Source: Acidobacteriota bacterium (GTDB taxonomy: Bacteria > Acidobacteriota > Vicinamibacteria > Vicinamibacterales > UBA2999). Taken from it: DNA of 64,000 bases. Position 1 is the stretch's first letter; each line of letters begins with the position of its first letter. The position numbers were made by a program, and so were the translations under genes. A model generated the notes under the pieces. That model was given only the letters and a program-made list of their open reading frames with translations. It was not told where the DNA came from and made no database searches. The DNA lies in contig JAKFYH010000003.1 of assembly GCA_021730945.1 (NCBI GenBank), forward strand, positions 62,001 through 126,000, read 5' to 3'. Below are positions 43,322-64,000 of this stretch, one piece after another.

Positions 43322-43377
43322 TTGAACCCTCGTGCTTGAACCCTCGTGCTTGAACCCTCGTGAATTGAACCCCCGTG
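43322..43377. repeat. Tandem array of 14-bp units
   Basis: Unit GTGCTTGAACCCTC occurs perfectly at 43332-43345 and 43346-43359, with a partial unit before (43322-43331) and a diverged 15-bp unit after (43360-43374). It fills most of the gap between the divergent lipoprotein and SDR genes. It shares the GTGCT core with arrays at 51867, 61225 and 63344. Confidence 0.85.
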
Positions 43378-51866: not shown

Positions 51867-51944
51867 TCGTGCTTAACGCCCGTGCTCAACGCCCGTGCTC
51901 AACGCCCGTGCTTAACGCCCGTGCTTAACGACCGTGCTTAACGA
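51867..51944. repeat. Tandem array of six 13-bp units
   Basis: Six head-to-tail units of the form CCGTGCTYAACGM occupy 51867-51944 without spacers (first unit begins TC). It lies between the ferritin and cupin genes and fills most of that 120-nt gap. The units share the GTGCT core with the arrays at 43322, 61225 and 63344. Function unknown; slippage-prone variable repeat is likely. Confidence 0.9.
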
Positions 51945-61224: not shown

Positions 61225-61261
61225 AGCACCCCAGCACCCCAGCACTTGAGCACTTGAGCAC
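61225..61261. repeat. Tandem octamer array filling an intergenic gap
   Basis: AGCACCCC twice, AGCACTTG twice, then AGCAC fill the 37 nt between the two permease genes. The ATG at 61262 follows directly, so the second permease has no Shine-Dalgarno site. Related to the arrays at 43322, 51867 and 63344. Confidence 0.9.
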
Positions 61262-62599
61262 ATGATTCCCTTCCTGATCGTCAGCGCGCAGATTGCCGTG
61301 CGGGCCCTTGGCCGCAATCGCCTGCGCACGGCCCTCACCATGCTCGGCGTGGTGATCGGCGTGGCGGCGGTGATTGCCATGGTGGCGCTCGGCACCGGGG
61401 CGCGCGGCTCGGTCGAGACCTCGCTCAAGTCGGCCGGCACCAACATCATCCAGGTCAGCGCCGGTAACTTCACCCGTGGCGGCGAGAGCATGAACATCGC
61501 CAGCGGGTTGGGCGCGGCCACGACGCTCACCCAAGACGATGCCGCGGCAATTCGCGGGATTGCCGGCGTGCAGACCGTGGCTGGCGGCGTGCGCAACCGG
61601 GCGTTCGCCAAGTCGGCGCACCGCCAGTACTTCACGCAGATTCGCGGCGTCGAGCCGGCGCTGGCCGACATTCATGGCTGGGAGTGGCTGGGCGGCCGTT
61701 TCGAGGGCGGCGCCAACCAGGCGGTGATGGGGCGGGCCGCGAGCCGCGAGTTGTTTGGTGAGGGTTTCGATCCGGTTGGCGATCGCGTCACGATTGGCGA
61801 CCGCGAGTTCGAGGTGTCGGGGTACTTCCGCACCAACGACACCGACATGGACGAGACAGTGTTTGTGCCGCTGGCGGCCGGCCAGGCGATGGTGAAGATC
61901 GGCCACTTGCACACCATCACCGTCGCGGTAGAGCAGGCGGGTGAGGCCAGCCGGGTGGCCGCGGAGATCACCGACTTACTCCGCGAGCGTCACCGGCGTG
62001 GCCGGCAGGCGGCGACCGTGACCGGGCTCGGCGGCAACCAGTTGCCGGGCGGCGGCGCCAGCGCCGACGATTTCACGGTCAAGACACAGGCGGCGGCCAA
62101 CGTTACCAAGGGTCTCTACACCTCGGTGGCGGCGTTTGCCCTGGCCAACATGCCCAAGTTGGACGAGGTGACGCTGCAGGAGATGTCGAGCACGCTTAGT
62201 CGGGCCGGGTCGACCATGACGGCGCTGCTCGGCAGCATTGCCGCGATTTCCTTGATCGTTGGCGGCATCGGCATCATGAACATCATGCTGGTGTCGGTGA
62301 CCGAGCGCACCAAGGAGATCGGCATCCGCCTGGCGGTGGGGGCCCGTCGGCGCGACGTGATGGTGCAGTTCCTGGTCGAAGCCATGGTGATGAGCTTGAT
62401 CGGCGGTGTGATTGGCGTCGGTCTTGGCCTGGCCACCTCGCGCGGCCTGACCGCGGTGCTTGACTGGCCGACCGAAGTGTCGCCGGTCACGGTGGCGGCC
62501 GCCTTTGGCATTGCCGCGCTGGTCGGGATTGTCTTTGGCTATTACCCGGCCCGCCGCGCGTCCCGCCTCGATCCGATCGAGTCCTTGCGCTATGAGTAA
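61262..62599 (+). CDS. MacB-type ABC transporter permease
   Basis: Second permease of the operon, 445 aa, with the same layout as its neighbour: N-terminal helix, MacB core (about 45-315) and three C-terminal helices. It carries GGIGIMNIMLVSVTERTKEI and RLAVGARRRDVMVQFLVEA. The two permeases are paralogues but differ in length because of the N-terminal periplasmic core. The ATG at 61262 abuts an octamer array and lacks a ribosome site. It overlaps the next gene by 8 nt. Confidence 0.88.
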   Translation: MIPFLIVSAQIAVRALGRNRLRTALTMLGVVIGVAAVIAMVALGTGARGSVETSLKSAGTNIIQVSAGNFTRGGESMNIASGLGAATTLTQDDAAAIRGIAGVQTVAGGVRNRAFAKSAHRQYFTQIRGVEPALADIHGWEWLGGRFEGGANQAVMGRAASRELFGEGFDPVGDRVTIGDREFEVSGYFRTNDTDMDETVFVPLAAGQAMVKIGHLHTITVAVEQAGEASRVAAEITDLLRERHRRGRQAATVTGLGGNQLPGGGASADDFTVKTQAAANVTKGLYTSVAAFALANMPKLDEVTLQEMSSTLSRAGSTMTALLGSIAAISLIVGGIGIMNIMLVSVTERTKEIGIRLAVGARRRDVMVQFLVEAMVMSLIGGVIGVGLGLATSRGLTAVLDWPTEVSPVTVAAAFGIAALVGIVFGYYPARRASRLDPIESLRYE

Positions 62600-62933: not shown

Positions 62934-63404
62934 CTACGAGGCTGGGATCGTGAACGGGATCTCGATCTCGAACGGCTCGCCGCGCAGCACGTAGGTGACT
63001 TTGGCCGTCACCTCGCCCGGTGCCACGGGTTGTCCCGAGGCCACCCAGCTTTCGCCGCTGTCGTCGATCGCCAGCACCAGCGGCTCGTCCGGCGCGCCGG
63101 CCCGCACGATGGTCATGGTGACCCGGGTGGCCTGCGACGCCGGCAGGTCCTCGCGCACGGCGTCGCTGAACCAGATGCGATGGCGGCCGCTCTTGTCGAG
63201 CACCACCTCGTAGTGCACCTCGCCGTTCATCAACACCAGGCCGCCGTGATGCGCGCTGTGATCGCCGTGCGGGGTGGTGATGCCGGCATGCTGCGCGTCC
63301 CTGGGCTGCGGCGCCGGCTCAGCCGCCGGCGGCGTCGCGGGTGAGCACCCCAGCACCAGCGCACTTGAGCACCCCAGCACCAAAGCACGCCAGCACCTCA
63401 GCAC
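62934..63404 (-). CDS. Lipoprotein whose signal peptide is encoded by an octamer array
   Basis: Protein of 156 aa. Its first about 20 residues (MLRCWRALVLGCSSALVLGC) are the - strand reading of an octamer repeat and contain a period-8 peptide ALVLGCS with two possible lipobox Cys (12 and 20). The array also gives a GAGGTG Shine-Dalgarno-like site upstream of the GTG start. The mature part has a His-rich segment (HGDHSAHHGGLV) and a beta-sandwich-like domain ending EIPFTIPAS. A copper/metal-binding role is possible. Its end lies next to the channel-like gene end. Confidence 0.65.
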   Translation of the reverse strand: MLRCWRALVLGCSSALVLGCSPATPPAAEPAPQPRDAQHAGITTPHGDHSAHHGGLVLMNGEVHYEVVLDKSGRHRIWFSDAVREDLPASQATRVTMTIVRAGAPDEPLVLAIDDSGESWVASGQPVAPGEVTAKVTYVLRGEPFEIEIPFTIPAS

Positions 63405-63431
63405 CTGAGCACCTCAGCACCTGAGCACCTC
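63344..63431. repeat. Tandem array of eleven octamers, partly coding
   Basis: Eleven head-to-tail 8-bp units, ten starting AGCAC and one CGCAC, with exact period 8. The - strand is read as the signal peptide of the lipoprotein gene (start 63404). The last bases provide part of the TCA (stop codon, - strand) of the amidase gene at 63430. It is the longest of the four related arrays. Confidence 0.92.
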
Positions 63432-64000
63432 ATCTGAAGATCCCCTTCGGCATCTTCACGTGCACCCCCATGGTGCCATCCACCAACTGAGTAATGGCGA
63501 CGTCGCCGGCCATGCTCGTCAGCTGGTAGGCCTGATGCTTGTCCATTTTCCCGGTCGCGGCGAGGAAGTCGACCATCTCCTGGATCGCGATGCGGGTGGC
63601 CGCGGTGAGGTCGACATCAGTCCCCATGCTGATGAAGTGGGTGCTGGTCTCGGCGCGGGGCCAAGTCAGGGTCATGCCCTTGCGGACGGTCAGCTGCACC
63701 CGGCCGCGCAGCGACGTCTCAAGGCCGGTCTGGTCCACCTCGCCGTCGCCCTGGGCGGCGTGGCCGTCGCCGATCTCGAACAGGGCGCCAGGCACGTGCA
63801 CGGGAATCCACAGGGTCGTGCCGGCGACCAGTTCCTTGTTGTCGAGGTTGCCGGCGTGAATCCCCGGCGGATTGCTGCTGACACGGCCAAGGGCCGGTGG
63901 CGGCGCCACGCCCATGCTGCCGAAGAACGGCTTGAGCCCAATCACGATGCCCGGCAGGAACGTCGCCGTCATGGCGGTGCGATCCATCTGGATGATCGTG
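63430..64000 (-). CDS. Acetamidase/formamidase family, 3' part (cut by window edge)
   Basis: C-terminal 190 residues of an FmdA/AmdA-family amidase; the 5' part lies beyond the window. Visible motifs are SSNPPGIHAGNLDNKELVAG, GALFEIGDGHAAQGDGEVDQ and ETSLRGRVQL, typical of this family. It would hydrolyse a small amide such as formamide or acetamide. Its stop lies in the octamer array and its end faces the lipoprotein start. Confidence 0.87.
   Translation of the reverse strand, partial: TIIQMDRTAMTATFLPGIVIGLKPFFGSMGVAPPPALGRVSSNPPGIHAGNLDNKELVAGTTLWIPVHVPGALFEIGDGHAAQGDGEVDQTGLETSLRGRVQLTVRKGMTLTWPRAETSTHFISMGTDVDLTAATRIAIQEMVDFLAATGKMDKHQAYQLTSMAGDVAITQLVDGTMGVHVKMPKGIFR

Follow-up and report, generated by a model that had tools for sequence, protein, structure and literature searches.

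A dispersed tandem octamer as the probable source of a lipoprotein start codon and signal peptide in an acidobacterial genome

Signal peptides evolve fast and tolerate nearly any hydrophobic sequence; to our knowledge, the origin of a new one has rarely been observed. Repeats can become part of proteins, as in Rickettsia, where palindromic elements are long palindromes inserted in frame within coding genes. The STRR heptamers of Nostoc and Calothrix, and the GGGAATC and GGGGAYT heptamers of Xanthomonas and Nostoc, are dispersed and mostly intergenic, often overlap stop codons or lie at most 50 bp from starts, form G-quadruplexes with four units preferred, and are under-represented in coding regions (PMC4692102). 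The TAACTGA direct repeats of Beggiatoaceae are dispersed tandem 7-mers just 5' of starts, some of which overlap stops; copies within ORFs lie mostly at protein ends, one orientation has stops in all frames, and the section on in-ORF copies mentions no signal peptide role (PMC4679880). It has also been reported that a mobile repeat in Yersinia forms part of one predicted signal peptide, the signal sequences of the homologues being unrelated; the enterobacterial RU-1 and RU-2 elements are MITE-like and 127-168 bp long (PMC2759123). Tandem repeats of Borgs are both intergenic and intragenic, and the proteins that bear them are enriched in exported ones; within genes, every Borg unit is perfect and has a length divisible by three, and the units encode disordered regions (PMC9879509). 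In the literature available to search, nothing was found on such repeats in Acidobacteria.

The repeat described here resembles the heptamers in that its units are short, dispersed, and mostly intergenic. Unlike them, the units are octamers built on a fixed GCAC core; they reach into the 5' end of coding sequence, where they encode signal peptides, and they are not of the G-quadruplex type (the unit is 8 bp, and GGGG occurs in CCC-type units only, most units being without it). Unlike TAACTGA, the octamer has one orientation that is hydrophobic and mostly stop-free and that replaces conserved signal peptides. Whereas RU-1/RU-2 provided one predicted case, we find short tandem arrays in several genes of two species, with orthologue comparison and evidence of selection; and whereas the Rickettsia elements lie within proteins, these short tandem arrays lie at the N-terminus. 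The octamer shares with the Borg repeats an occurrence both between and within genes, but its units are imperfect and 8 bp long, encode one peptide whatever the frame, and make up signal peptides. Dispersed heptamers are already known from other bacteria, as is one signal peptide made from a repeat; what looks new is that a short tandem array has been recruited again and again.

Coordinates are those of the window, the whole 64-kb stretch of DNA analysed, in which an Rfam search gave no match. The features concerned are:

62934-63404, - strand: lipoprotein gene, 156 aa, HGDHxxHHGG-containing, with no family match in Pfam or NCBIfam
63344-63432, no strand assigned: tandem octamer array of 11 units, AGCACYYS on + and SRRGTGCT on - (Tandem Repeats Finder and unit listing)
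63345-63404, - strand: array-coded signal peptide, residues 1-20 (VLRCWRALVLGCSSALVLGC), residue 1 read as Met
63345-63347, - strand: lipobox Cys20 codon, with Cys conserved across the nine orthologues aligned
63402-63404, - strand: proposed GTG start codon within the array, anti-SD duplex -9.3 kcal/mol
63410-63415, - strand: SD-like GAGGTG from the repeat (sequence and anti-SD pairing of the start region)
63398-63433, - strand: relic ATGA start with an 11-aa reading, MRCSGAEVLRC and stop, ending in a TGA that shares bases with the new start (GTGCTGA)
63430-63999, - strand: acetamidase/formamidase gene (PF03069), 3' part, Pfam E 6e-22
61225-61264, no strand assigned: another array of this octamer family, which takes up the space separating two MacB/FtsX-type genes

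Tandem Repeats Finder assigns the main array a period of 8, 11.1 copies, 0% indels, and 75% matches. The eleven exact-period octamers of the initial annotation are therefore exact in spacing, but the units differ among themselves. In the second array the final unit, AGCACATG, provides the ATG of the next gene (61262-62599). In a search of the same genome the three-unit pattern AGCACYYSAGCACYYSAGCAC matched 86 times (45 forward, 41 reverse), against 0 for the reversed pattern used as a control, and shuffled loci contained 0 arrays, so the arrays are not due to chance. At least 51 arrays with 294 units (0 in shuffled sequence) were counted over the stretches of the genome examined, a lower bound rather than a genome total. 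They are mostly intergenic at gene junctions, often spanning a stop codon to the next start codon, and some lie in coding sequence. Unit positions 2-5 (GCAC) are near-invariant (about 97-99% of units) and positions 6-8 variable; this fixed core with three freely varying last positions holds in the non-coding arrays too (51 arrays). The family is of the STRR kind: its short unit (8 bp) is tandemly repeated at many loci, for the most part in non-coding DNA close to the ends of genes, and it is restricted to certain lineages (15 genomes out of 193 in the class). It is strongest in its own genus and in G030, strong also in G007, and has few or no arrays in most relatives.

Assembly artefact was ruled out because homologous arrays share sites across independently assembled genomes: our genome (G000) and G006 at the 63344-63432 locus, and G000 and G007 in a NuoL-like loop and at waaC-like and ybdK-like starts. 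Local slippage of native sequence was ruled out as the whole origin because the family occurs genome-wide. The arrays have no fixed ends, and some form back-to-back inverted pairs that are hairpin-capable (L062 1997-2096, L091 1995-2062). A rare two-unit block, AGCACCAA-AGCACGCC, is found in two arrays only, the main one (at window 63376-63407) and that at L097 1985-2048, which suggests copying of unit blocks between loci. Other species have dispersed families of their own. That of G036 is a 10-mer, GGTGCGGGCG, which matches over 70 sites in the one genome, frequently as long arrays (L160-L179); G002 and G001 have a 13-mer. The window also contains a 14-mer array (TTGAACCCTCGTGC, 43322-43377), dispersed elsewhere in the genome as well, and a 13-mer array (CGTGCTTAACGCC, 51868-51943).

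Read as codons, SRRGTGCT gives GTG CTS RRG TGC TSR RGT GCT SRR, which translates as V L (R/G/K) C (W/S) (G/S) A (x). Because 8 equals 2 modulo 3, all three frames of an array yield one peptide: hydrophobic VL(R/G)C(W/S)GA(x) whatever the frame in the GTGCT orientation, and a polar peptide in the AGCAC orientation (mean Kyte-Doolittle values for non-signal arrays of 0.76 and -0.82, respectively). Units with GGG read V-L-G-C, a ready-made lipobox. By direct reading, every unit contains a GTG, and GAGG units set an SD core 7 bases ahead of the next GTG. The repeat is usable as an export signal because it supplies both a frame-independent hydrophobic peptide with its lipobox and units that each carry a GTG and in many cases a GAGG SD element.

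At the lipoprotein locus, the start codon (GTG, 63402-63404) and SD-like GAGGTG (63415-63410) that the initial annotation placed on the - strand of the array are both present, and the array does contribute bases to the amidase stop, as it had also proposed, since the TGA (63432-63430) falls within 63344-63432. The - strand ORF begins at this GTG and reads VLRCWRALVLGCSSALVLGCSPATPPA at its N-terminus. GTG start codons are weaker than ATG. The region upstream of GTG 63404 pairs with the anti-SD tail at -9.3 kcal/mol, a value matched by 4.8% of random positions, and translation probably starts at this codon. The relic reading from ATGA ends at a TGA (63400-63398) that overlaps the proposed start in GTGCTGA (63404-63398); from this overlap of leader stop and GTG, termination-reinitiation may perhaps take place. 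The gene for a peptide-binding lipoprotein (L089) has the same GTGCTGA geometry, with the leader MKQVLRC and stop. The array-coded region has cysteines at residues 4, 12, and 20. Both Cys12 and Cys20 had been put forward as lipobox cysteines; PROSITE pattern PS51257 fits Cys20 and fails at Cys12, as it does at residue 4, and the Cys20 column is Cys in 9/9 sequences aligned. The product thus has both a hydrophobic signal peptide and a lipobox, as expected of a lipoprotein, and we infer that it is exported and lipidated. A stricter G+LPP-like lipobox pattern does not fit the window peptide, nor the orthologues in G003 and G008.

Orthologues of the lipoprotein were found in 16 of 60 relatives. 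The named records are acidobacterial metagenome assemblies, except that JAIEMQ010000007.1 (L205), which carries the acidobacterial locus, is labelled 'Cyanobacteria bacterium', probably a misnaming. In G008 and in a second copy in G006, the ATG overlaps the amidase stop (ATGA) and is followed by an ordinary lipoprotein signal peptide; G001 has a GTGA overlap and likewise an ordinary signal peptide. The closest orthologue, in G006, has the same octamer array, with an in-frame reading from ATGA through the array (MTCWSAGVLRCWGARVLGCSGAMVLIAGCS). Other relatives have different repeats at the junction: another octamer in G003 (GGGGGCTT), the 13-mer in G002, and the 10-mer in G036. The mature lipoprotein is under purifying selection (dN 0.11, dS 0.70, dN/dS 0.158 against G006). 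The G000 and G006 arrays have variant units in common at their 3' ends (GTGC-G-NTGGTGCT), which suggests that the array is older than the split of the two, with selection continuing afterwards.

Six further genes of the same genome have signal peptides wholly or partly coded by arrays. Signal peptides were classified by eye, some cases being weak, and the protein names, like those given below for the AGCAC-sense arrays, come from reading the sequences rather than from a family search:

L060: array-coded signal peptide MKCWGAQVLGCLLVGSAMFVLPATAAAQA
L078, EnvC/M23-like: array-coded signal peptide MGLGCWGAGVLRSLGAMVLATGVVALAAQ
L079, AttH-like: array-coded signal peptide MRNSSRCWGAEVLRCSSAVVLAVAILMGVSMAGQA
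L089, peptide-binding lipoprotein: array-coded signal peptide MLKCWGAEVLRCLGAMVLGGVISGCQ
L097, cytochrome/TPR: array-coded signal peptide MKKVLRCWGAEVLACFGAAVLMCTPAGAQ
L058: array-coded signal peptide, a weaker case

The sister species G006 has two more (L155 and L158, also classified by hand). Coding arrays in the GTGCT sense are signal peptides in 10/10 cases and those in the AGCAC sense in 0/8, as sorted by hand and with two homologous pairs included (the window gene and C178 of G006 are homologous). The AGCAC-sense arrays occupy polar sites, namely NuoL-like, heme A synthase-like, and GlgA-like loops and a MetH-like linker, as well as the N-termini of LeuC- and CsoR-like proteins. In the NuoL-like protein of two species, the array encodes a polar HAPQHLSTPAPEHLSTP loop (L064 2008-2071, L144 1471-1518). 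Hydrophobicity is higher in the signal-peptide arrays than in the remaining arrays of the same sense (Mann-Whitney P 0.002, the compared frames not being independent). The signal-peptide arrays are enriched for A at unit position 7 (7/52 versus 6/242, P 0.003), which changes the polar x codon to Met, Leu, or Val.

Orthologues were examined for three of these genes. For the binding protein, G001 has a GGTGCAYG octamer, G005, G006, and G008 have CACGGAAT/TTCGGTG octamers, and G002 has GGGGGCTT; no repeat was found in the orthologues of G003 and G004. The CACGGAAT/TTCGGTG octamers at this gene form inverted pairs resembling those at L062 and L091. For EnvC, G001 has an in-frame octamer and G006 and G007 a GGCTTGA heptamer, with no repeat found in G002 and G008. 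The cytochrome/TPR orthologues in G001 and G005 (L116, L115) have a palindromic repeat (GCGATGGCTTCAGCCATCGC type) in the signal-peptide region. When examined for signal-peptide use, the G036 10-mer and G002 13-mer were found mainly in n-regions or non-coding sequence, L046 and L184 excepted. Across relatives, tandem repeats occur at 13/26 signal-peptide sites and at 6/19 sites of three control genes (P 0.24); under a criterion chosen post hoc (2.5 or more copies of a period not divisible by 3) the figures are 12/26 and 1/19 (P 0.003).

We propose, with a probability of roughly three in four, that a junction-dwelling, species-specific repeat either inserted into or grew at the 5' end of the lipoprotein gene, replaced its ancestral signal peptide, and now acts as its export signal. 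The array would be one copy of a dispersed family of short tandem repeats found mainly at gene junctions. At that time the ATG of the gene would have shared bases with the amidase stop (ATGA), and the ancestral signal peptide would have given way to the repeat. In our lineage, the number of units would then have pushed ATGA out of frame, and translation would have moved to GTG 63404, perhaps by termination-reinitiation at GTGCTGA. The array, its dispersal, the orthologue comparison, the open frame, and the purifying selection are what the sequences show directly; the exact start, reinitiation, export, and lipidation we infer. The initial annotation's view of a repeat recruited as start and export signal is supported by the ordinary signal peptides of orthologues, the invariant lipobox Cys, purifying selection, and the parallel cases.

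One might instead suppose that the array is chiefly non-coding, a regulatory, structural, or selfish element of gene junctions, and that its signal-peptide reading is incidental or neutral. Most of the 51 arrays are intergenic, and the known heptamer families are mainly intergenic and thought to be regulatory (PMC4692102, PMC4679880). We consider this unlikely, as the window locus has no other source for the conserved lipobox Cys and hydrophobic stretch, and the coding arrays depart from the family consensus toward hydrophobic codons; a non-coding origin followed by coding use would be compatible with both readings.

A contingency locus, in which slippage in unit number turns the lipoprotein on and off, seems very unlikely. 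The 8-bp unit length cannot be divided by 3, and the G006 array differs by one unit from ours. However, gain or loss of 5' units, or deletion of any single translated unit, leaves a start and an open frame: simulated unit changes did not abolish the reading frame but kept one opened by a GTG, in nearly all cases upstream of the hydrophobic stretch, since the unit length is not divisible by 3 and a GTG is present in each unit. With GTG starts in all frames, the case for phase variation is weak. The array units are also heterogeneous, and heterogeneous repeat units normally lower slippage. The earlier expectation that unit-number changes would shift the frame therefore holds only relative to the ancestral ATGA start, and the comparison of array length and frame then suggested bears it out to that extent, G006 reading in frame from ATGA and our genome from the internal GTG. 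That the array broke the gene and left a decaying relic is barely credible: the ATGA start does now run 11 codons to a stop, but the mature part is intact, the frame is open across the array, and residues have changed no faster in our lineage than in that of G006 (6 versus 9 changes in the mature part).

A wider proposal we hold only tentatively: short dispersed tandem repeats may be a standing source of new signal peptides in this genus. Families whose sense strand is hydrophobic in every frame would be recruited time after time where genes for exported proteins begin, different families occupying the same sites from one species to another, and frame-blind GTG/SD cassettes would keep translation going. 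Gene finders should be warned, because true starts would lie within repeats that annotation may skip. The source of a signal peptide is visible here, a genomic repeat that carries the same hydrophobic peptide in all frames together with its own start and SD elements, and the locus is a natural test of how repeats turn into coding sequence.
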